Source: a virus
IMG/VR virus record: IMGVR_UViG_3300025131_000457
Span: 1-23,120 of that record
DNA: 23,120 nt
Strand: one strand, 5' to 3'
Below the pieces are notes generated by a model. The model was not told the DNA's origin. It saw only the letters and a program-made list of their open reading frames with translations, and did no database searches. Position numbers and translations under genes: made by a program. Positions 4,001 to 23,120 of this stretch are shown here, one piece after another. Within the stretch, counting starts at the first letter, position 1; the number at the start of each line of letters is the position of its first letter.

Positions 4001-7000
4001 GAGTCAGATTCAGCTATTGCTACTTCAACTTCTGTTTTAGGCGGTGAGTTAGAGTTGTTGAAAATGGAATTTTCAATTGATATGCTGGGAAATGGACCAG
4101 GTAAGAGTAATTGGGGATTCATAAACATGATTCTCAGTGATACTATGGGACGCCCATATACTAATCATATGAGGAAAGCGCACGGCTGGACCGGTAGAAC
4201 ATATGTTGACTTTTATGTTGATTTAGGTCAAGTTGATACCGACGCTGACGGCGTGGGCGCTGGAAATTTTGCAGATCCATGGCGCCAAGAGGGTGCTTTT
4301 CCTCAAAGAGTAGCTGGTTGGTTGAGTGATTATCTAACAGACGGGATCCTTGCTCCAACATTCGAATCAAGCAATGATGCTCAAGCAGATGAAGTTATAT
4401 CAAAAGATTTTGATGCTTTTGGTATTTCAAGCTTTAAAGGAAGCCCTCAGAATTTATTAATGCTCCCAGATTTAGGATACAACGTTGAAATAGATCCAGA
4501 CATAGAGGATGAGCAAGTAGATTTCACCATTAAAGCCCGTAAAGCAGCGCCAGATATGACATTATCTTTTGAGGATAATGCCGCTGGGGAAATGGACCAT
4601 TTCCCTAAACAAGTTTATAATTATGGATTTGATATAGAAATGTATCTAGCAGACATTGAAGAATCAGGGAGTACATATGTCAATAGGCAAGGTGACGCTA
4701 CAAGAATTAAAATAACTAACCGTTATAATGGAGCAGAAGCTTCATTTGCAAATAGTGCATATGAAGACGCCGACGACACCGGTACCCCCCAGACAGATGA
4801 AGAATATATTGCGGTGAGAGAATTCGAGTTTTTAGCAGTCGATGATACATTGAGTGATGTGGAAATAGATTTAACAAATTATGTTGACTTTCTTTCCACA
4901 TTTGAGGCTCAACAAGATTATATACCGCAAGTTGTCTTATTAAAAGAGATTTTGAATGAAGGTGGTGGAAGTTTTGAAAGTAACACGGTTAAAGCATTGC
5001 ACGATGAATTTATGACGAATATAACAGCAGAATTCATAAGCACTCTTGCAGAAAATACTGACGCTTTTGATTATGGTGCGAAATTTGATGATTTAGCTAC
5101 AACAGATATCGCATATGTTACTGAAGATGGTGAGTCATATTTTGATTCGGGTTATACGAATGATGATCAAGTCTTAGGCATTAGTCAGATGCAATATGAT
5201 GAAGAGAACAACGATGGCCCACCTAATAGGGTTTTCTATTTAGATCCGTTGCAGTTTGGCGGTACGTATATGAATCCACCGATTTATATTTCCCCACTTA
5301 CTGGATCTGGCTGGACGGGTATTGTGGATTTATTATTTCCAGAAATAAGTCCGTGTAAGCCATTTAGAACTGATTTGATTGATTTCGGAGATATCCAAGA
5401 TAAAATAGATGAAGTGTATCCTAATATTCCAGAAGATGAAAGATTAATGTCTAGTGAAGAATGCGTGCTGGAGGTTCCATATAATAGAATTTTAGAAAGA
5501 GTATCCGCAGCCGGCTTGGAAGGGTTAATAACAGCCGCTATTAGAATTTATGTTAGTGTGCATTTTTTAAAATCGTTGGCTACTTTTACGACATTTTATC
5601 CAAAATTTCCACAAACGTATAGCAGTATATATGCTCAGTATATTGTTGAAGATATGGAGAAGAATTTTAAAGACGCCCAGAAAGCTGGTTGGGAATTTTT
5701 TAATCCCTTTAAAGATGAGGAATTTTGGTATGCTTTCTTGGAACAATCAGTGCAGGTGTACGCTAGAAGAGTAGATAGTGAGGATATAGAATTTCCTTCA
5801 AAATCTGCGATAGATGCGTGTGGCATTCTAAATGATATGCAGGATGATTATGATTATCCATATAGAGAAGATTTAAGAGAAGAAAAACAAGATAGAACTG
5901 TAAGTTTCTTTAAAACATTAAAGAACTATCGTTCTGAAAAAAACCTCCAAGCAGTACAAGAAACGGAAGAGTTGGCAAAATTAGTTCTCAAAGATTTAGT
6001 AATGGAACAATTAGAGTTTATGGGTGAGAAATTTGTTTCTAATCTTAAACAAATTGGGATGACTCCTCCGATATTTGATTTAGATTATTATTTGTTAACA
6101 AATCTTTCTCAAGGAACATTAGAATTAGATTTAAATAAGGAAATTAAAGAAGAAGTAGACGTAGACGGCTGGCCAACAGAAGAAGAGAGTGAATTATATA
6201 CAGGCGGTGGCGAACTGTATGTTTTTGAAAAAAATGACGAAGATAGTGATTCTGAAGAAGGTGAAGAATATATTGGTTATTGGCACGCATTCAAAAACGA
6301 AGAAGGTGAGTTGGTTTATATGTCTGGTGAGTTTCACAACGAAGGTGATCACGATATCTTGGTTCCTTTCGCTAATAAAGTTACCGTTCCTATAGGTGAT
6401 GTGGAAGAATACGAATTTAGCCCAGACACATCAGACACCACGAAGCCATTTGTTGTTGAGAAATATATTAGTATCGATGGTACGAAATACGCACCTTCAA
6501 CAGCGATAGATATAATCAAAGCAAATGATAATACTTTAAATATTTCAGACGTTTATCCTGGCACGTTAGAAGTTTTAGTTGATAATAATGGCAACGGAGT
6601 TGGATTGGATGGTGAGTTGGGTATCCGTTATGGGTTGCTTTTTTCTATGATTGCAGATGGAACTAAAGTAGAAATCACAACCGTAGAAGTAGATGCGTTG
6701 GATCTTGCAATAGGGCAAATTGCTCCTTTTGATGGAGATAGTAAACAATTGTTGTGTTTAATTAATCTTTTGAAACGTGATAGTAAGTTTAAACTAATAT
6801 CACGTTATATTTTCCCATTGAGTAAAATCACATCATTATTGGCGATTTATAATGATTTTGCCTTTTTACCATCGATAGGACAAATCACAGTGGAAAAAGG
6901 AGCATATAGATCCAACGAGGCCGAAGAAAAACCCGGCTCTTATATGACGGATGTGGATGATAATGGAAATCCAGTAATCACACCAGGCGAAGACGGCTGG

Positions 7001-7334: not shown

Positions 7335-7727
7335 ATGAATGCATTTGGTGTAGCACTTCCGGTGCGAAGAGATTCGAATGATGGGTTTGTGATGCTTAAA
7401 ACTTTTAAGAAGTTGTTTAGTCAAAATTTGAAAATGTTAATATTAACAACACCTGGCGAAAGGGTAATGGAACCAAATTTTGGAGTTGGAATGAGAACAT
7501 ATTTATTTCAGAATTTTGGACAAAACACAGAACAAGCTATCGCATCAAAAATCAGAGAACAAGCAAGTATTTATTTGCCGGCTATTAAGATTTCTTCAAT
7601 TTCTTTTAATTCAACTGGCATAGACAGCAATAGGTTGGGTATCATAGACAGCAATAGGTTGGGTATTGCTATCTCTTATTCAATACCAGATATTAATATA
7701 AAAGATTTTATAGAGATTACTATTTAA
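7335..7727 (+). CDS. 25: gp25-like baseplate wedge protein
   Basis: The 130-residue protein matches the gp25-like family (T4 gp25, P2 gpW). After a short N-terminal arm comes a helical segment around KLFSQNLKMLILT, then the family hallmark PGERVMEPNFGVG (about residues 40-52), followed by LF and a long helix (about 60-78). Two C-terminal strands follow. In the family this small protein sits in the baseplate wedge and helps trigger sheath contraction. Just before the last strand, eight residues are present twice (GIDSNRLG, then IIDSNRLG) because of an exact 24-base tandem duplication. Without it the protein would be 122 residues, closer to what I expect for the family. The frame is kept, so the gene may still work, but the lengthened loop is odd. 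It lies 34 bases after the giant gene and 16 bases before the gp6-like gene, the usual wedge-gene company. Confidence 0.93.
   Translation: MNAFGVALPVRRDSNDGFVMLKTFKKLFSQNLKMLILTTPGERVMEPNFGVGMRTYLFQNFGQNTEQAIASKIREQASIYLPAIKISSISFNSTGIDSNRLGIIDSNRLGIAISYSIPDINIKDFIEITI
7619..7666 (+). repeat. Perfect 24-base tandem duplication inside the gp25-like gene
   Basis: Bases 7619-7642 and 7643-7666 are identical. The period-24 match stops exactly at both ends: 7618 is G against T at 7642, and 7667 is T against C at 7643. There is therefore no extra microhomology. The repeat adds eight residues in frame and contains SNRLG twice. Confidence 0.97.
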
Positions 7728-7743: not shown

Positions 7744-9540
7744 ATGTCTGACGAACAAAAGAAAATAGTTCCAATTGATTATACTCATCGGGATTTTCAA
7801 AGTATAAAAGAGGACTTATTGGAGATAGCAGAGAGGTTTTATCCTGATAATTTTCAAGATTTTAGTGAGGCTTCTTTCGGCGCTTTAATGCTAGATGCAG
7901 TTGCATATGTTGGCGATCAGCTATCATTTTATCTAGATTACAATGTAAATGAGTCATTTTTAGACACTGCCTACCAGCAAAACAATGTACTTCGCCATGG
8001 TAGGGTATTAGGATATAAACACCCCGGCAGAGCCTCGACATATGGAAAAGTAGCGTTATATGTTTTAGTGCCGGCTTCTTCAACCGCAGTCGGCCCTGAT
8101 TCTGATTATATTCCAATTTTAAAAAGAGGAACCAGATTATCTTCTACCGGCGGCTTGAATTTCATTTTAATAGAAAATGTAGATTTTGATAATCCAAAAA
8201 ATTCTGTGGTTGTTGCGAAAGTGGACAGCACAACAGGCGCCCCCACTCATTTTGCTATTAAGGCATATGGAAATGTTGTTTCTGGCCAATTTGGCACTGA
8301 GCAATTTACAGTAGGAGCATATGAAAGATTTAAAAAGATAAAATTATCATCACCAAATATTACCGAAATTATATCGGTATTTGATAAAGAAGGGAATGAA
8401 TATTTTGAAGTAGATTATCTTGCGCAAGATATGGTATTTAAAGAGATATCGAATACTAATTTTAAGAATGACAACGTTCCATCGATTGTAAAACCATATT
8501 TGGTATCTCGTAAGTTTGTTGTGCAAAGAGATAGCCGCTCTGCATATTTGCAATTTGGCAATGGAAAATCGGGAGAAACAAATGTTGTTGCTAACCCTCA
8601 ATCAGTAGCGCTTGATATATTTGGAAAAGATTATGTTACTAGCACAACTTTTGATCCAACTAAGCTGACGAAAAATGAAAATTATGGAATAGTTCCATCT
8701 AATACAACGCTGACTGTTAATTATAGAATGACAAATCCATCTAATTCTAATATTGCTGTCGGTACGCTTACAAGTGTTTCAAATGCACGAGTAGATTTCA
8801 AAGACAGAACAAAACTGGTTACCTCAAAGGCCCAGGCGATTGTTGAATCTTTTGAGGTAATCAATGAAGAACCAATTGTTGGCGATGTATCAAATATCTC
8901 AACAGATGAAATGAAAATGAGAATTTTTGATACATTCCCTACTCAAAATAGAGCAGTCACCCAAGCAGATTATGAAAATCTCACTTATAGAATGCCGGCA
9001 AAATTTGGCTCAATTAAACGATGTTCTGTGCAAAAAGATCCAGATTCTCTTAAACGAAATCTCAATATGTATGTGATATCAGAAGATCAATTTGGCAAAT
9101 TAACGAAAACAAATTCGACGATTAAGAATAATTTAAAGATTTGGCTGAATCATTATAGAATGATAAATGATACGGTAGATATATTAGATCCTTTTATTCT
9201 TAATTTAGGAATTGAGTTTTCAGTTAAGGCGTCAGCCGGGGTTGATAAGTATACTTTATTAGATTCATGCGTAAAAGCATTAAGTAAGAAATATGCAACA
9301 ACATTTTATATTGGCGAGCATTTTTATATCAGTGATATTTATCAAGAATTAAAGAATGTAAGAGGTGTGCTCGATGTTGTGAAGGTTAAATTAGTTAATA
9401 AATCAGGTACCGGTTATTCGGGAGTTGAGTTAAGTATTAACAATAACCTATCGCCAGATGGAAGTTATTTGATAATACCTAAGAATGTAATATTGGAGAT
9501 AAAATATCCATCGGTAGATATTAAGGGAAAAGTTAGTTAA
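7744..9540 (+). CDS. 6: gp6-like baseplate wedge protein (baseplate J family)
   Basis: The 598-residue protein has the architecture of T4 gp6 and baseplate J-like proteins. The N-terminus has IDYTHRDFQSIKEDL (11-25), then FSEASFGALMLDAVAYVGDQ (about 40-59), LSFYLDYNVNESFLDTA (about 60-76) and VLRHGRVLGYK (82-92), the typical opening of gp6 homologues in T4-like phages. The middle is beta-rich. TQNRAVTQADYENL (about 400-413), followed by the GSIKR segment, is the conserved J-family motif. Near the C-terminus YISDIYQELKNVRGVLDVV (about 529-547) matches the usual closing segment. In T4, gp6 dimers form the continuous ring of wedge cores that surrounds the hub and opens on infection. It follows the gp25-like gene, and its TAA overlaps the next ATG by one base, implying translational coupling. 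Confidence 0.94.
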   Translation: MSDEQKKIVPIDYTHRDFQSIKEDLLEIAERFYPDNFQDFSEASFGALMLDAVAYVGDQLSFYLDYNVNESFLDTAYQQNNVLRHGRVLGYKHPGRASTYGKVALYVLVPASSTAVGPDSDYIPILKRGTRLSSTGGLNFILIENVDFDNPKNSVVVAKVDSTTGAPTHFAIKAYGNVVSGQFGTEQFTVGAYERFKKIKLSSPNITEIISVFDKEGNEYFEVDYLAQDMVFKEISNTNFKNDNVPSIVKPYLVSRKFVVQRDSRSAYLQFGNGKSGETNVVANPQSVALDIFGKDYVTSTTFDPTKLTKNENYGIVPSNTTLTVNYRMTNPSNSNIAVGTLTSVSNARVDFKDRTKLVTSKAQAIVESFEVINEEPIVGDVSNISTDEMKMRIFDTFPTQNRAVTQADYENLTYRMPAKFGSIKRCSVQKDPDSLKRNLNMYVISEDQFGKLTKTNSTIKNNLKIWLNHYRMINDTVDILDPFILNLGIEFSVKASAGVDKYTLLDSCVKALSKKYATTFYIGEHFYISDIYQELKNVRGVLDVVKVKLVNKSGTGYSGVELSINNNLSPDGSYLIIPKNVILEIKYPSVDIKGKVS

Positions 9541-11264
9541 TGGCGATTAAGAAATATAAAGCTAATGCGGATACAACAATAGTTAACGCCTATCAGAAGA
9601 ATTTTAGAACTCGCGGCACTGGTTCAAATGCTGGTGAAGCAGATGTCTTGGAAGTGTATTCTATATACGGACTAGTGACAACTAGTTCTGCGGAGCTATC
9701 TAGGGCATTGGTGAAATTTCCAATAACTGATGTTTCTACGGATAGGACAAACGGTGTACTTCCCGCTAGCGGAAGTGTTAGTTTCTATCTTCGAATGTTC
9801 AATGCCCCGCATTCTAAAACTGTTCCTGCTGATTACAAACTTTCAGTGTTGGCGGTGTCTCAATCATGGCAAGAAGGCACTGGATTAGATTTAGAAGGGT
9901 ACAAGGATTTAACTAAAGGTAATTCCGGTGCAAATTGGATGAGCGCTTCAAATACGGCATATTGGACGGATACAGCGGGTTCAGTATTAGCCGGCGGTTC
10001 TTATCACACAGGCAGTAGCGATACAGAGACATTTTTACTCACTCAAAGCTTTACAACCGGTTTGGAAGATTTGGAAGTTGATATCACTCCGATAGTCGAA
10101 CAATGGATAGCTGGAACGTATACAAACTACGGACTAGGCGTTCATATGTCTGCTAGTTATGAAGCATATATTTCTGGAACAGCGAACACAATTGTTAGTC
10201 GTATGCCTGGTGAGTTAGCATTAGATGCCGAAGATACAACTCAGAGTGTGATATACAACCCTAGCGGCTCTACGAAATCATATTATACGAAGCGATTTTT
10301 TGCAAGAGGTTCGCAATATTTCTTTAAACGTCCTGTGATTGAAGCAAGATGGGATGATAAAATTACAGACGATCGTGGTGATTTTTATTTTAGTAGTTCT
10401 TTAGCAACTGCTGCTGATAACTTGAACACAATCTATTTGTATAACTATGTTAGGGGTAAGTTGGCAGATATTCCAGCTTTAGGTGATGATAAAAGGATAT
10501 ATGTTAGTTTATTTTCCGGTTCTGTTGGTGGGTTTTATGCTGATCAAGGAGGTGGTGATGGAGATGACATGGCGCCGTCTGATATTCCAATATCAGGGAC
10601 GACATCGGCAAACACTGGTAGTGTACAGATTCTATCCGCTGACAATAGCAGTTTTGTCAGCAGTGACAATAAATTAGTTGCAACAGGCGGAATTGTTTCA
10701 ACTGGAATTTACAGTGCATCGTTTGCGTTCACTGGATCAACATTGCTGGAAACTGTATATGATGTTTGGTTTACTGGGAGTCATACCACGACTAGTGCTT
10801 TTGATGCTATAACTCAATATTTCACTGGTACTATTAAACCGGTGACATTGAGAGCAGAGCAAAGTAATTCACATCCAACATATTATTTGAATATTACAAA
10901 TCTTCAACAAAAATATCGCGGCAATCAAACCCCGCGCTTTAATCTGTTTGTTAGAGAGAAGTATTGGAATCCAACTATTTATACGAAAGCGACAGCAACT
11001 GCGCAGTCAGCAACCGTTGTAAGTGCTTCGTATCGTGTATTTAGAACTTTAGATGCATATGATGCGATACCCTACGGCACAGGTAGTGATTTACATACTT
11101 TGATGTCATATGATGAGTCTGGTAATTATTTTGATTTAGATATGAACTTATTAGAGCCAGGATATGAATATGGGCTTAAGTTTTCATTTTATGATAATCA
11201 ACTGAGTAGTTGGGTTGAGCAAGATAAAGTATTTAAGTTCAGAGTAGAAGATTATGAGTATTAA
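9540..11264 (+). CDS. DNRLRE-type beta-sandwich virion protein, probably baseplate-associated
   Basis: This is a 574-residue protein. Residues about 1-210 carry the pattern of DNRLRE / CBM96-like domains: KANADTTI near the start, SRALVKFPI (54-62), a strand pair around VSFYLRMFNA, WQEGTGLD with a downstream NW, and DITPIVEQWIAGTYTNYGLG (about 181-200). DNRLRE domains are beta-sandwiches found in surface and secreted proteins, often with carbohydrate binding. The middle (about 266-480) has further strand-like segments. The C-terminal 75 residues contain SYDESGNYFDLDMNLLEPGYEYG, a pattern that I recall from structural proteins beside gp6 homologues. The start is the ATG overlapping the gp6-like stop (TAATG), with AAGGGA 11 bases upstream. 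The stop overlaps the next gene by 11 bases. A role as a wedge-peripheral or fibre-attachment protein is inferred from position; adhesion is possible but unproven. Confidence 0.75.
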   Translation: MAIKKYKANADTTIVNAYQKNFRTRGTGSNAGEADVLEVYSIYGLVTTSSAELSRALVKFPITDVSTDRTNGVLPASGSVSFYLRMFNAPHSKTVPADYKLSVLAVSQSWQEGTGLDLEGYKDLTKGNSGANWMSASNTAYWTDTAGSVLAGGSYHTGSSDTETFLLTQSFTTGLEDLEVDITPIVEQWIAGTYTNYGLGVHMSASYEAYISGTANTIVSRMPGELALDAEDTTQSVIYNPSGSTKSYYTKRFFARGSQYFFKRPVIEARWDDKITDDRGDFYFSSSLATAADNLNTIYLYNYVRGKLADIPALGDDKRIYVSLFSGSVGGFYADQGGGDGDDMAPSDIPISGTTSANTGSVQILSADNSSFVSSDNKLVATGGIVSTGIYSASFAFTGSTLLETVYDVWFTGSHTTTSAFDAITQYFTGTIKPVTLRAEQSNSHPTYYLNITNLQQKYRGNQTPRFNLFVREKYWNPTIYTKATATAQSATVVSASYRVFRTLDAYDAIPYGTGSDLHTLMSYDESGNYFDLDMNLLEPGYEYGLKFSFYDNQLSSWVEQDKVFKFRVEDYEY

Positions 11265-17200: not shown

Positions 17201-20200
17201 TTGATCAAATTTTAACCATAATTAATTCTTCCACTAATTACAATTTAAATTGGATAAGATATTCAGAGGCATTATTTCCATCTGCACGGAATGAATTTAG
17301 ATCTTCTTCTATAGAAAGAACGGATTATGATAATAAATTTTGGAGAGATTCGGAAGCAGACAGAGTAACCCTTGGAGCTACAGTTCCTAATTCATTTGGA
17401 TATATTGATACATTATCGCAGAGTAGTTGGATTTTAGATGCACAGGAGGACTGGAAAACAAGAACAGGTCCAGTCACTGGTTCGGATCCAGATTATTATC
17501 AATTTCCTACTTACGGTAAAGCGGGAGAATTACAAAACAATTATTTCTCTTATGTTACTGGAACTCTTGCTAATACCTCCGAAGGTCTTACGTACAAACA
17601 GCCTAGGCTGTTAAGGATGGGAGCGTTATATTCCAGGAAACATATGATTTCAACTCCACGCTCTGCTAGATCTCCAACAGGTCCCAAGTTAATTGTAGAG
17701 CAAGGTGTGACACTGACGACACCATGTGTTTTTTCTGGCGCGATTGCTCCATATTCAGGTGAAGCATTATGGGAGGCAGCATCTCAAGCAGGTATTATAG
17801 AACGCACAGCATCAGTTGCCGGCCATAAATTTACAGGATATCCATCGGTACCATGGTTTAATGAATATAAAGATTTCAAAGAAGATATCAAACTTCAAGC
17901 AAGAGGGTATGCTATTATACCAGAATTTAGAATCAGCGAACATGTTAGAGATTATTTGAAATTCGGAATTAATAATGTAGAAAAAATGAATACTTTTGAA
18001 ATTCCAGGTACCGACATTGAAAGTGTATCTAGTTCTTTTTATGTAGATTATTCTAATTCAGAATTTATGAAAGATTTTTTGAATATTAAGAATGATTCTT
18101 TGCTAAATGCAACGGAAATTAAATTAGTATGCAGTGCTGCAATTAGATTTAATCCATATAAAGGTTTTTATCCTGCCCAGAGAACGTTAGATTTAGTTTC
18201 TCAATTTTCTCATTCATATGCGCCGGCTCTTATCGGAAGGGCACTGGAAACTACCCCATGGGCGATGGACAATTATAGATTCAATCAAATGACTTCCCCT
18301 GGCTCACCGGCAGGTGCGATGCGTCCGTTAATGCAAACACTTTTTTCACCTGGACTTCTTTATAATTCAATTAAATCTGGATTGGCTGTGGATTATCCGG
18401 TGGTTACTGATACCAATAAGATTAGTAGGTATGATAATTTTTATGGTTCTTCGCACGCAGATCTGACAGATAATTTTGCTCTCACTCCTGATAGTGCCAG
18501 CGCAGTCGGTGCGGTTGGATTGGGTTATAGTGGCTCGCTCAATGCTAGCGCTGGTGAATATTGGGATAAGCGAATTCCATTTGAAGCTATTATGAACCCT
18601 GCGAAAACGCTTAATGGATTAACTTTTTATGATGTTGAATCTCACCCTTCGATGAGTATGAATGTCACATCATCATGGTCGGGAAAAAATGATGATAGAG
18701 TTTATACATTAATGGCGAGGAATTTTTTTGGAGAAGTTGGGAATTTCTTCTTGAAAGATCAAGGATATACAAAATTACAATCCACTGCTTTAGCAGATTC
18801 TATGAAATTTCCTAGTGGCAGTTGGTATGGCGCTAGGTTGGTATTACGCCGCACCTCTGTCGGTGCAAGAACTTATGAATATGAATCTGGTTCTGCGGGA
18901 AATAATGAACCATATGGTACTTATGGCGGTTTATTTTATGCTGCAGCTTTAGGTTTCGTTACTGGCTCAGAGTATCCGATACCACAAGATCCTAGACAGA
19001 ATCCAGGGTTTAGAGAAAATTTCACGATGTATAGTCGTCCAAGTGCTTTTGGGCCGCCTATAGGTGGCAGACCCACTGGTTCTTTCGCTTTATATCCAGA
19101 AGTTATTAACACTTCTCCTGTGGATAGTTTTAGCGGCTTTAATTGGGCATATACTCCTCCGTACTATAATGGTGAAGCTTGGGTGGACCTTGTATTTAAA
19201 CCCAACCATACAACAACTTATGATTTAGAACAAATCCTATCAGAAATCGAAACAGTATATCGGAGAGTGGATCCTGGATATAGTAAAGTTGCTAAGCTAG
19301 GTTATGATGTCGGAGAGACAACGCTACTTAGTTCTTATGTTACATATTCTGGCTCTATGCAGCAAATTTATTCAGGAAGAAACGTTAACAGTAATGCTAT
19401 GCAGATATCTGCAAGTATTAATCTTTTTGGAATAGAAAGTGTTGACGAACAGGAAACGGATAAGTTTGGAAATATGATAAAGAGTGTAAATAAATCCGTA
19501 GGTAATAAGTGGGTTATTCAGCCTAAATTTGAAACACCAATGCTGAATTTTGCCGATTCGGGCATACATTCAATAACTGCATCAAATGGTAATTTAACTT
19601 TACCGTCAAATTTTGGTTCCGGCGCCGTCCCACAAGGTATGTGGCATCAATTTGGAACATTCCCGTCCATTCCGTCCGAAGGTGTGTTTCTCGAAATTGG
19701 TGATATTCCAACTGATTGGTTGAAGTATCACTATGATGTTGTGAATAATGCACATGCTGTTTATAATGACTCTAACGCTACATTTGGCAGAAAAGTTTAT
19801 CAAAAAATGAAATCTTTGACTGATTTAGTTGGATTTGAAGAGGATAATAGTGTTAGATTAGGTGAGGTATCATCACAAACAGTTTTGCGAGAGGCTATTG
19901 TTGCAGTTCCATACATTGTTGATACTGTAGATACTGTGACTTTAAAGAAGACTAGCCTCGATAGAAATATTGCAAAAAGAAGAAAATCATTTATTGATAT
20001 CCCAACTCAACGATATGATGCAGCGCTTTCATCGGAAAAAGGTAGTTTATCTGGCGATTCATTAGATGTTTCTGGAGAGTCAATTAGAAAATTAGTTCAA
20101 AAAATGGATCGCTATATTCTACCACCCCAATTTGACTTTTTAAATAATGAAGAAATCGATCCTATTGTGATGTATATATTCGAATTCGAATATAAATTAG

Positions 20201-20865
20201 ATAAAGATGATTTGAGTTATATTTGGCAGAATCTTGCCCCTAGAAATTTCCGAAAACTAACTCTTGAAGCGCAATCGATATCTCATGAGTTATCATTTAA
20301 TGAGTTGTTGAGTGAAGACAATATTATGGATAATGATAATCTTCGCTGGATGGTGTTCAAAGTGAAGCAGAAATCGCAGATAAATTATGGTGATTTAGTG
20401 GCATCACAAGTTGAAAAAGCAACTAAAAGTAAAACACAAGCCAGTTCAGGCAACTCCAATGCTTCAGGCGCAGACAACTGGTTGCATGAGCAGCAATACG
20501 GCCACACCCGCAAATCAAGAAAAACAAAACAAAGTACATCAAGATCTCAACGAGCAACAGTGTCATCGAACAGTGGATATGAAATTGGATTTAACTGGCC
20601 ATATGATTATGTATCATTTGTAGAGATGGTGAAAATGGATGCAGAAGTGTTATATGGAGATACAAGCTCTGAAACATCAGTTGCTGGTGTTAGTGCTGAG
20701 ATTGATACTACCGCTGCGAGCGAAACAAGCACTCCTACTACCGGCACAACAACGACTAGAAAAACAAGTAGAAGTAAGACTAGTAGACAAACATCACGTA
20801 AGTCATCAAAATCTAGAAGCTCTACTGGTGCATCACGATTGCGAACGAAATCGAGGACAAAATAA
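11254..20865 (+). CDS. Giant LamG-domain virion protein (3203 aa) with tail-protein-I-like core and basic C-terminal tail
   Basis: The N-terminus is helical and polar. Residues about 190-440 form a LamG / concanavalin A-like domain: VTIEFWAKS, WKHYAFVLN, KLYVNGRL, GSLDEFRYWKEARSGKDI and YYKFNEG occur in the canonical order. Residues about 470-690 resemble the phage tail protein I type of baseplate protein, including PDWIIQDI, PFAQHLPQSLGLYTPEIF and KGTEKAIRNVYRCF (615-628). A second, weaker LamG-like domain spans about 695-925 (SLFGMYT ... GGVRYWTKYLTDTDL). Residues about 1050-1180 are helical. The long remainder is mostly beta-rich with Ser/Gly/Thr/Tyr turns, and I recognise no domain in it. 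Near the end a compact motif, NWPYDYVSFVEMVKMDAE (about 3114-3131), sits between two Ser/Lys/Arg-rich low-complexity segments; the last 35 residues have 14 basic and no acidic residues. The ATG at 11254 overlaps the previous gene by 11 bases. It is probably an outer baseplate or fibre-like component; sugar binding by LamG is inferred. Confidence 0.8.
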   Translation: MSIKKLFESTDKSKNYLADTTEKEAFQEVESARNVKAIKEKQDTYVPQIDYSDPANFVKYGSAYLYYKSAVERIIDYYPYDGSDAEVNEFYNKSLDIEKYIFNNLYPRTTGHVKVGTDWTNTSGSKMSGYGRPNTLEYIDFKGGPNTITSSTTAGLFKDPNSSNRESANIYDEDIYTSAGLPTSYGTGSRESNLRANFDSGVTIEFWAKSGSLSSAKTSKQVYVDVWNNELSCSAYGGTLNTNSNSAYGRITIIWEETLERFRVTAQSGTATSANGIFEQPIGTSLTGSLSDWKHYAFVLNNSGSAFNSKLYVNGRLNDFTSSAAININEINSKNMVGRVGALLTAPSGSAGSAQETQNLVGGGKLSGSLDEFRYWKEARSGKDIGKNWFTHVRGGTNTDISNTTLGVYYKFNEGTTGTTATDQVVLDYSGRVSNGTWTGYNSFSRLSGSAIVEATASAVEYKDPIIHSTHPDVVSLKDSLLTSGSYHDSTNNAAFLNLVPDWIIQDIETDGTEDVRLISHIMGAYFDKIHSWISAVPQFKADMHTSASHTPVPFAQHLPQSLGLYTPEIFIDSNILERFMNRNEDSNFEGDLTEVKNLIYLNLYNNLTHIFKAKGTEKAIRNVYRCFNIDDSLINLNTYSDNNVYTLENNAKQILLNKRLLNFNDKNNTEAVIFQTTGSSAATETRGYISGSNDVGNENKYGCTLEAEVLFPRYFQNNDKFDRSFSEVSLFGMYTVDTGSADSLNGITTQFTDVDYANLQVTAVRDSLRSKNVYFRLTSSNHPVYVPELTSSVFFGVYDQNKWNISVRVKPSNYGLTDIVTGSEGYTYDLIFKGTNSQLGDVVDSFTLTASLGKTAGQNFLGSSKRIYAGARRTNVTGAVLNRSDVLMGGVRYWTKYLTDTDLEHHSDDINNRGISGSNRHFSFKDPNIQGTTAAPLSHQSITNLNALAMDWSYDTVTSSDSAGNFFATDYSSGSSLLRDNYGWVGGVGGYQHAGFGYGFATSSAVIVSTEAINAFKFTDPEKVISSDMVQILSEDDKLYGVVDSIPSYRYTLEKSMHNVISEEMLQFFAGVVDFHNIIGEPVNRYRDRYKALEKLREIFFRRVTEIKDVEKFITYYKWFDDSLSDIISQLIPASGDFNSDMYNVIESHVLERNKYKSQFPTIEFIEPDLDAAMQGAYASTYPYEAGSTPLPTSPRSTQKYRFYWDSRAERGAAEITSNNSTVDEQRDTIRDVVFNNSTLTQSIPRFSASAGLFEGRKFTVKRLAKTFQMNFDSPFVSSSFIKGGVNFTDNKNIHFTYNALYPAGPVNRDDSKYVPRNVIFARTEDMEKYHETVDLNNPRKKYKRYIKAYHGRDWENGTGYSNVKSSYVFPFNIISPAPSSGYNKAVIDKVTGNVQVTNLHNDSYYEDMDVPMQGPFTNFAVGGHQSRHVALNTGGDDYTNRPEAWKLLLGATVQITGAIGMVGADYPWPEANAVGEIPYPMTASQKAVYYRNVLTKRPVNIRNIQRTTSSALGNYSENYEVVMTVGAYQNPRCFIDNQPTLPSQITQTPSASQGRIFLDIHRTEDGHTEFIPSYSVGYLTGTNNKSVIVSRFSTPGAIETMGVGYKDIRSAEYSVYNVINYRNLTVIKPSQGPSGTISEATGSGTPGIRVYDIHAKDYGLRSHLARHTARFGRDSFWITGSTSTIDGPETTAGGPGASDNQFPGFHKVHRNTKRIIKVTNAGTLTDIQTVAVESSSQYDNYFVQHAIPRSDRQYSWITSSLINSNDEKYFDYASTNPAVVGCYSASTGYISFFDFVSGSSISSSTIPTFYQPINTLNVFVIDPVSGSTDNVLGFASGIPTSSYYNKTLLDNIPTAVSAAVVQDDANYFNLLMSKRGNTFGWNWKKTNQSYSPIIAAERKANYITIGENMDSIKRYSLPPVTTRGRPVLVNFDSVTSIDSESEITDNNITFKITNNNEKLYFSDIQLEDYLLDSIDSTITPFDQILTIINSSTNYNLNWIRYSEALFPSARNEFRSSSIERTDYDNKFWRDSEADRVTLGATVPNSFGYIDTLSQSSWILDAQEDWKTRTGPVTGSDPDYYQFPTYGKAGELQNNYFSYVTGTLANTSEGLTYKQPRLLRMGALYSRKHMISTPRSARSPTGPKLIVEQGVTLTTPCVFSGAIAPYSGEALWEAASQAGIIERTASVAGHKFTGYPSVPWFNEYKDFKEDIKLQARGYAIIPEFRISEHVRDYLKFGINNVEKMNTFEIPGTDIESVSSSFYVDYSNSEFMKDFLNIKNDSLLNATEIKLVCSAAIRFNPYKGFYPAQRTLDLVSQFSHSYAPALIGRALETTPWAMDNYRFNQMTSPGSPAGAMRPLMQTLFSPGLLYNSIKSGLAVDYPVVTDTNKISRYDNFYGSSHADLTDNFALTPDSASAVGAVGLGYSGSLNASAGEYWDKRIPFEAIMNPAKTLNGLTFYDVESHPSMSMNVTSSWSGKNDDRVYTLMARNFFGEVGNFFLKDQGYTKLQSTALADSMKFPSGSWYGARLVLRRTSVGARTYEYESGSAGNNEPYGTYGGLFYAAALGFVTGSEYPIPQDPRQNPGFRENFTMYSRPSAFGPPIGGRPTGSFALYPEVINTSPVDSFSGFNWAYTPPYYNGEAWVDLVFKPNHTTTYDLEQILSEIETVYRRVDPGYSKVAKLGYDVGETTLLSSYVTYSGSMQQIYSGRNVNSNAMQISASINLFGIESVDEQETDKFGNMIKSVNKSVGNKWVIQPKFETPMLNFADSGIHSITASNGNLTLPSNFGSGAVPQGMWHQFGTFPSIPSEGVFLEIGDIPTDWLKYHYDVVNNAHAVYNDSNATFGRKVYQKMKSLTDLVGFEEDNSVRLGEVSSQTVLREAIVAVPYIVDTVDTVTLKKTSLDRNIAKRRKSFIDIPTQRYDAALSSEKGSLSGDSLDVSGESIRKLVQKMDRYILPPQFDFLNNEEIDPIVMYIFEFEYKLDKDDLSYIWQNLAPRNFRKLTLEAQSISHELSFNELLSEDNIMDNDNLRWMVFKVKQKSQINYGDLVASQVEKATKSKTQASSGNSNASGADNWLHEQQYGHTRKSRKTKQSTSRSQRATVSSNSGYEIGFNWPYDYVSFVEMVKMDAEVLYGDTSSETSVAGVSAEIDTTAASETSTPTTGTTTTRKTSRSKTSRQTSRKSSKSRSSTGASRLRTKSRTK
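20175..20194. repeat. Perfect 20-base palindrome inside the 3203-residue gene
   Basis: The sequence is its own reverse complement over 10 base pairs on each side of a central GAATTC, and the symmetry ends at 20174/20195. It encodes an alternating IFEFEY segment, so protein constraint may explain part of it. No function is assigned. Confidence 0.85.
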
Positions 20866-20868
20866 AAA

Positions 20869-21492
20869 ATGGCAAAATTTTTAAATAAAAAAGAACAAGT
20901 TTATGATTTAAAACTCACTAGCTATGGTCATCATTTATTATCTACTGGTAAGTTTAAGCCAGTTTATTATGCTTTTTATGATGATAATGTGATTTATGAT
21001 ATTAGATATGCTTCTGGAAGCGCTAGCGCATCCATTGAACCACAAAATAATATTCATGAGAGAATCAAAGAAAATACTTCTTATTTGGAAGGACAGGTTT
21101 TATTTTCAGAAGTTGAGAGAAACATTAATAAAATCACAGAACTTGATTTTTTTGAGACAGATATAACACCTACCATGATTACGCCAGCAGAAGATTTTAA
21201 TAAAATAAATAAAATGATTGGCGATGCTTGGCTGGATGGAGATACAAACAAAGCCCCAGCTTGGAAAGTGGTTGCTTTAGATGGAAAGATTTTATCTTCA
21301 TCGTATTATGATCATAATAGACAAACCCATGATCAACAAATTAATTTTGATTTATTATATTCTTTAAAAGCAGTCGACCCGCTCTTTCGAGTAAACCCTA
21401 ATGAGATAGCACAATTAGAAAATGCTACACCTATTTTTGCGGACGGACACACCTATTTTTGCGGACGGACAAAGAATTGTTTTAGAGCCTGA
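20869..21492 (+). CDS. N-terminal part of a conserved phage structural gene broken by a frameshift
   Basis: This frame encodes 207 residues, but only about the first 193 belong to the original protein. The N-terminus (MAKFLNKKEQVYDLKLTSYG, then LLSTGKFKPVYYAFYDDNV, then a NNIHERIKENTSYLE segment) matches a family I recall in large T4-like phages just after the giant baseplate genes. Its function is not known to me. At 21427-21470 an exact 22-base duplication shifts the frame, so the last residues (HTYFCGRTKNCFRA) are not native and the TGA at 21490-21492 is premature. Removing one copy joins ADGQRIVLEPDDAMVYVEE without a break and gives a single protein of 453 residues ending at 22252. GAGGA at 20853-20857 lies 11 bases before the ATG, which follows the previous stop by 3 bases. 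Either the gene is truly broken in this genome or the duplication is an assembly error. Confidence 0.85.
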   Translation: MAKFLNKKEQVYDLKLTSYGHHLLSTGKFKPVYYAFYDDNVIYDIRYASGSASASIEPQNNIHERIKENTSYLEGQVLFSEVERNINKITELDFFETDITPTMITPAEDFNKINKMIGDAWLDGDTNKAPAWKVVALDGKILSSSYYDHNRQTHDQQINFDLLYSLKAVDPLFRVNPNEIAQLENATPIFADGHTYFCGRTKNCFRA

Positions 21493-22252
21493 TGATGCGA
21501 TGGTGTATGTAGAGGAAGTCAACACTCAGTTGTTAACAGAGAATTTCGATATTGAAGTGTTTCATCTTTCTGGTGCTGTTGGCGCCACAGCTACTTATAC
21601 ACAAGAATCAGGCACTCCAAGTGCTATAACCGGAAAAACGTTAACTCTTGAAGACGCACTAGGCACCACCCATACAATGACTTTTAATTCTAGTGCTGGA
21701 ACCACTACCTCAACGATTATTTACGTAAATGGTTTGAATAAGCCGACAATTGTTAAACAAATCATAACTGCAATTAATTTAGCAAGAGATGCAGGGTTGA
21801 TTGGTATCACTGCATCTAGAGTTAATCCATCAACGATATCGTTGGTAATGGATACAACTGCGTATCCCGAAGCAGGAAATGATAAAACAATAACTGGTAC
21901 AATTATAGATGACTCATTAGCTACTGCTGTAGATTTTGGCGGTGGCGCCAGCGCTGTAATGAAAAGAAAATATTTTCAAAAAGATATTCAACAGATTAAA
22001 GACGGTATCATGCTAACAGAGACGCCATTGCAAAATACACCTGATAGTTATACAACAAATAGTGTAGAATATTATTTCGATATTTTAACAGATGTGCAAG
22101 TAAACCACACAAAAGCATGCGTAGGTGCGGAATCTTTTAATAAACAGTCATATTATGTAGATTTAGATTTTGATTGTACAGGAACGGATGAAGAAATAGT
22201 GTTTTATGATATTTATGGACCAGTTACGGAGCCTGAAATATGTCAAGATTAA
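21422..22252 (+). CDS. C-terminal part of the frameshift-split structural gene, with an inserted Ig-like domain
   Basis: The open frame could start at the ATG at 21422, giving 276 residues, but that ATG lies out of frame within the upstream half and has no close Shine-Dalgarno site. The native sequence resumes at TPIFADGQRIVLEPDD. A beta-strand segment, FDIEVFHLSG, is followed at about residues 53-178 of this fragment by a Gly/Thr-rich module (GKTLTLEDALGTTHTMTF, then a helix IVKQIITAINLARDAG, then ITASRVNPSTISLVMDTT, then NDKTITGTI). It resembles an Ig-like/adhesive module found repeatedly in environmental phage structural proteins. After it the core appears to resume with KRKYFQKDIQQIKDGIML and VEYYFDILTDVQV. 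The module therefore looks inserted within a conserved core. The stop overlaps the next gene by 13 bases. As written this half would be translated poorly or only after a +1 shift. Confidence 0.8.
   Translation: MLHLFLRTDTPIFADGQRIVLEPDDAMVYVEEVNTQLLTENFDIEVFHLSGAVGATATYTQESGTPSAITGKTLTLEDALGTTHTMTFNSSAGTTTSTIIYVNGLNKPTIVKQIITAINLARDAGLIGITASRVNPSTISLVMDTTAYPEAGNDKTITGTIIDDSLATAVDFGGGASAVMKRKYFQKDIQQIKDGIMLTETPLQNTPDSYTTNSVEYYFDILTDVQVNHTKACVGAESFNKQSYYVDLDFDCTGTDEEIVFYDIYGPVTEPEICQD
21427..21470 (+). repeat. Perfect 22-base tandem duplication causing a frameshift
   Basis: Bases 21427-21448 and 21449-21470 are identical, and the period-22 match extends only one base further, to 21471. Because 22 is not a multiple of three, the downstream half of the gene is in another frame. 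Deleting one copy restores a single open frame from 20869 to 22252. Confidence 0.97.
22228..22231 (+). promoter_or_regulatory. Ribosome binding site GGAG for the last gene
   Basis: GGAG lies 8 bases before the ATG at 22240, inside the end of the preceding gene. It supports this overlapping start. Confidence 0.55.
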
Positions 22253-23120
22253 TATACAAAGGGGATACGATTAATAATTTTGGTAAGCACTTGCCTACGC
22301 CATATATTGATAGAGTGATTGTTTACGACGAGAAGCTTGAAATAACAGTTTCATTGTTTATCAACGCTCCAGAGAATGATAAAGATGATATTATAGACTG
22401 GATTGAGGATAGAATTTATTTAAATATTGTTACAATGACCAGTTTAACTGAAGACGAAATAGAAGATCTTACCTCTGGAGAGATGAATTGTGTACAATTT
22501 ATAGCTGATGGCAATGCGGACACGACACAGTGGGATGAATTTTTTAGCGATCATGCAAAGAATACCACAATAGTATATGATGATGAAGGAAATAGATATT
22601 TAAAAATTACTAAAGAAGAAACTTTCTCCATCGGAACGGATCCGTGGACGGAGCTAGTATCATCCAACGCCTTATATGAGTCTGAGAATTTTTATATTGG
22701 GTTTTTTACTTCAATTAATGATTATACATCTACTGAACTTTCTACAAACACTGAACAAACAAATAATTTAATAGCAAAAAACATCAGCGATATGGCGTTT
22801 GAGAAAATAACTGAAGACGGTGACTTGCCTCCTCAAAAAGAGATTCTATGGGTGGATCCAGAAGGGGATCCTTATGGTTTAATCCCACTTCAGAATCTTA
22901 CTAGTCAATATTATACAGCGGAAAACATCACACACCAGGACATTGTGGATTCATTTCAGGAATTATTGGATGAATATGAAGCCAAAACAGAAACATACCC
23001 CAAATTAAAGAAAATGGTCGATAATATTTCTTATATTCTGGCAAAATATGGTAAAACATTTCAATTATTACCACAACTTAATTTATTGAGAAAAGTTTTT
23101 TCAAGCAAAACTGCCGCAAC
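22240..23120 (+). CDS. Acidic phage protein of unknown function (3' partial)
   Basis: From the ATG at 22240 the frame stays open to the window edge, giving 293 complete codons and two leftover bases. The start overlaps the preceding stop by 13 bases. The N-terminus reads MSRLIYKGDTINNFGKHLPT, then IDRVIVYDEKLEITVSLFIN, a strand-rich opening. Residues about 47-190 are acidic and of mixed character. About 228-275 looks helical and charged (IVDSFQELLDEYEAKTE, then YPKLKKMVDNISYILAKYG). There is no signal peptide, membrane segment or catalytic motif that I can name. Opening with a strand-rich segment right after the split gene and sharing its transcript suggests a further baseplate or tail-peripheral structural protein, but I do not recognise the family. 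Confidence 0.75.
   Translation, partial: MSRLIYKGDTINNFGKHLPTPYIDRVIVYDEKLEITVSLFINAPENDKDDIIDWIEDRIYLNIVTMTSLTEDEIEDLTSGEMNCVQFIADGNADTTQWDEFFSDHAKNTTIVYDDEGNRYLKITKEETFSIGTDPWTELVSSNALYESENFYIGFFTSINDYTSTELSTNTEQTNNLIAKNISDMAFEKITEDGDLPPQKEILWVDPEGDPYGLIPLQNLTSQYYTAENITHQDIVDSFQELLDEYEAKTETYPKLKKMVDNISYILAKYGKTFQLLPQLNLLRKVFSSKTAA

Follow-up and report, generated by a model that had tools for sequence, protein, structure and literature searches.

In the window, that is, the whole 23,120-base stretch of a virus record analysed here, two overlapping open reading frames of the + strand fill positions 20869-22252. ORF 1 (20869-21492, 207 aa) holds the N-terminal part of a member of a conserved but unannotated marine-phage protein family, while ORF 2 (21422-22252, 276 aa), read in the +1 frame with respect to ORF 1, holds the C-terminal part of the same gene. 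The frame is shifted at an exact tandem duplication: a 22-bp unit, ACACCTATTTTTGCGGACGGAC, at 21427-21448 on the + strand, is followed at once by an identical copy at 21449-21470, and the period-22 identity extends one base further, to 21471. This duplication, noticed in an initial sequence-only reading of the window, is confirmed by direct sequence comparison. It lies far beyond chance, since exact tandem repeats with a period of 18-40 were absent from 20 Markov shuffles of the window. Removal of one copy leaves 1384-22 bases, which amounts to 453 codons and a stop, in agreement with the single 453-residue frame proposed on collapsing the repeat. Genes resembling gp25 and gp6 are found upstream of the split gene, which is preceded by an ORF of 3203 aa.

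Relatives of the split gene were collected in two steps, a first search giving 21 viral loci and a profile search giving 80 distinct contigs, those 21 included. When compared by tblastn with the first 21 loci, residues 1 to about 194 of ORF 1 and the residues of ORF 2 from about residue 10 match the same frame, within one ORF of the relatives. ORF 1 and ORF 2 are therefore halves of one gene, and the family sequence does continue from the first frame into the second, as had been proposed. In the wider sample a single ORF, without stops, spans the family profile in 80 of 80 related marine viral contigs; the gene being whole in every one of them, the split is private to the window's record. The possibility that homologues are naturally two separate proteins, raised in the sequence-only reading, was examined in this way and is ruled out. 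It might still be imagined that the duplication is tolerated, with ribosomes shifting by +1 to yield a full-length protein carrying a few extra residues. The stretch 21419-21489, where ORF 1 and ORF 2 overlap, is indeed open in both frames; however, the relatives need no such shift and show none, and we find this scenario scarcely credible. Under the explanation favoured below, this is an ordinary gene made of one ORF, from an uncultivated group of marine tailed phages.

In 76 of the 80 contigs the ORF preceding the family gene has at least 1000 aa or is cut by the beginning of the locus; most of these ORFs are near 3000 aa or longer, and the 3203-aa ORF of the window is in line with them. The family itself is real and unannotated: it has no match in PHROGs, in Pfam or among PDB sequences; no isolated phage relative was retrieved by tblastn of the split gene's family or by blastn of 18000-23120; and no bacterial or archaeal genome contig matched it. 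A fold search with the family core gave no match either, a result of little weight because the model has low confidence (mean pLDDT 58.7). The gene had been described as a conserved structural gene. Its conservation as a single gene stands, and a virion role is plausible from its position, with the gp25-like and gp6-like genes upstream; family, PDB and fold searches brought nothing to the structural part of that description.

Within ORF 2, positions 21578-21955 (+ strand) encode about 120 aa whose place within the protein is different in other phages. The segment lies in the C-terminal half of the protein in the window, and near residue 55 in L019-L023, L059, L065, L085 and L103-L105 (for example at L019:4782-5144, L020:5163-5528, L021:4683-5036 and L065:9590-10024). 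The family protein does without it in contigs such as L005, L007 and L009. Judging from this distribution, the segment is a portable insertion domain, and no family is known for it. It had no match in isolated phages, and its structural model (mean pLDDT 42.9) is too weak to interpret. One weak copy (E 0.00065) is seen in another contig, within the large ORF that precedes the family gene (L106:3-9998, + strand). Elsewhere in the window, a 574-aa ORF (9540-11264) has a sub-threshold Pfam match to Disaggr_repeat (E 0.0047).

The module around the split gene had been considered otherwise intact. This is not the case: a second exact tandem duplication, overlooked at first and detected both by TRF and by an exact scan, occupies 7619-7666 on the + strand, where the 24-bp unit CATAGACAGCAATAGGTTGGGTAT is present twice. 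It lies in a gp25-like baseplate wedge gene (7335-7727, + strand) which matches the GPW_gp25 family of Pfam (PF04965, E 3e-10, 40.1 bits for a cut-off of 27.2), yet differs from its relatives by 8 extra residues, the duplication being in frame and adding IDSNRLGI. The five same-species contigs that cover the site (L024-L028, 98-99.3% DNA identity) all lack it, as do the other gp25 relatives, and in L025, L026 and L027 no other indel occurs over 4.7-10.3 kb. As for the 22-bp site, we found no same-species contig reaching 21427, and the nearest evidence comes from the 80 more distant relatives, in which the gene is intact. A degenerate pattern for the single-copy junction of this site gave no match in close relatives within the collection searched, and the two-copy junctions of the 22-bp and of the 24-bp duplications are both absent from every other viral contig searched.

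The 24-bp duplication falls at a point where strain variants meet. Compared with the same-species contigs, the window displays 8 SNPs in 219 bases (7400-7618), nearly all of them common to every same-species relative against the window, and the last position of this tract, 7618, adjoins the first base of the duplication. Beyond the duplication no SNP is seen up to 8435, the next difference being at 8436, so that the SNP-free stretch exceeds 750 bases. A random mutation could have fallen anywhere in that stretch, and the exact fit to the edge of the tract thus favours an assembly artefact over mutation. This is strong support for an artefact, not proof, because the pattern at the strain boundary was recognised once the data had been seen and had not been predicted. 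The window has other variable regions. Another dense SNP tract, at 8961-9638, sets it apart from all covering same-species contigs, and the edges of this tract carry no duplication. Two short, highly divergent stretches, 4233-4278 and 6976-6993, show indels between same-species contigs inside a 2097-aa ORF, which suggests local hypervariability or recombination.

How unusual are two such duplications in one contig? The background was counted in 1.32 Mb of non-redundant related sequence. It comprises 6 distinct exact tandem arrays of 14-80 bp, of which half fall in low-complexity or multi-copy repeats, and in the related loci all such arrays lie outside the aligned family gene. The probability of meeting two arrays in 23 kb is about 0.005 when all 6 are counted, and about 0.001 when the background is restricted to the three plain two-copy cases. 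One of these arrays, at L113:12875-12938, doubles 29 bp exactly in tandem and goes on matching for 6 bases more; it interrupts a long frame and is perhaps the same kind of error.

These figures bear on the view, also put forward in the sequence-only reading, that the duplication is a recent mutation in a defective genome. According to this view a real tandem duplication arose lately in the phage lineage, knocking out the gene, and the assembler happened to pick up the genome concerned, a minor and probably defective one. Exact copies do imply recency, and real recent duplications would likewise be exact and private; the window's record is a private strain with SNP tracts of its own, and the case of L113 shows that frame-breaking exact duplications exist in the collection, whatever their cause. 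By contrast, two events in a single 23-kb contig fit poorly with a background of 6 arrays in 1.32 Mb from relatives, mutation would not predict so precise a placement of the 24-bp copy at the border of a SNP tract, and the loss of a gene kept whole in all relatives should presumably be purged fast. The ends of both duplications are, in addition, almost devoid of microhomology (1 bp and 0 bp), and replication slippage is not suggested by such ends. We hold a recent mutation to be less likely than an artefact, yet a serious rival: the exact and private copies agree with it, the number of events and the tract-edge fit do not.

The reading we prefer, at a probability of roughly 0.7, is that the 22-bp duplication is an assembly artefact, in which the overlap of two pieces was written twice. 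An assembly or consensus error had been listed among the initial options, and it is now the best supported of them, through the private split of the gene combined with a private 24-bp duplication at the edge of a SNP tract. The edge of such a tract is where a junction is to be expected in an assembly of mixed strains: a path specific to a strain variant would rejoin the shared path at 7618/7619, and the bases by which two contig or graph pieces overlap would be kept twice where they are joined. At the other site the doubled 22 bases would put the rest of the gene out of frame and so divide an intact gene in two. The strain-boundary argument covers the 24-bp copy only; for the 22-bp copy an artefactual cause is inferred on the assumption that the same joining error was at work, and the virus itself would carry a single copy of the 22-bp unit. 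With the record alone, artefact and real private mutation cannot be told apart for certain.

The details of the joining error can be narrowed down somewhat. A fixed overlap of k-1 bases in an assembly graph was considered and discarded, as the two lengths, 22 and 24 bp, disagree and one such overlap cannot explain both. One JGI recipe uses large k-mers and 80-bp overlaps, which does not explain duplications of 22-24 bp (PMC5369317), although the assembler used for the window may differ. A precedent is found in Vibrio fischeri ES114, where a genome assembly of about 2001 contained false tandem 'expansions' of 318-1264 bp; they were proven by PCR and resequencing, the sequence of a conspecific strain having served as a clue (PMC2330054). 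As in that account, a unique stretch appears here twice in tandem, with extra or truncated ORFs and few differing bases at the ends; unlike the V. fischeri expansions described there, those of the window are of 22 and 24 bp, and belong to a metagenomic contig (PMC2330054). The mechanism would be of the same kind. Apart from this precedent, literature searches on phage phase variation and on assembly artefacts yielded nothing directly concerned with short exact duplications in viral contigs.

There remains, among the initial proposals, a reversible switch in which recombination or slippage would turn a one-copy (ON) form into a two-copy (OFF) form and back. In phase variation of this type, based on short tandem repeats, a tandem repeat within a gene changes its frame. 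A direct repeat of 22 bp could in principle collapse, and its length is not a multiple of three. The window differs from phase-variable genes, however, in having only two copies of the unit, with none in the relatives, and the two forms are not in evidence. In not one of the 80 relatives is the gene divided here or an exact repeat present, and the two-copy junction is found in no other record. The 24-bp duplication, for its part, affects an unrelated baseplate gene and, being in frame, would not act as a frameshift switch. The proposal thus finds no support, and a switch appears very improbable. Equally improbable is the underlying claim that the duplication is real, with a mixed population of one-copy and two-copy genomes, and that, by gaining and losing a short tandem repeat, a marine phage makes a protein of its tail module variable.

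If the assembly artefact favoured here is indeed the cause, genes may be falsely split wherever a single metagenomic viral contig carries a short, exact tandem duplication, and such duplications deserve to be checked against sister contigs and for a location at the edges of SNP tracts. Were the duplication to be a real switch, marine phages would have a means of varying a protein of the tail module that is new.
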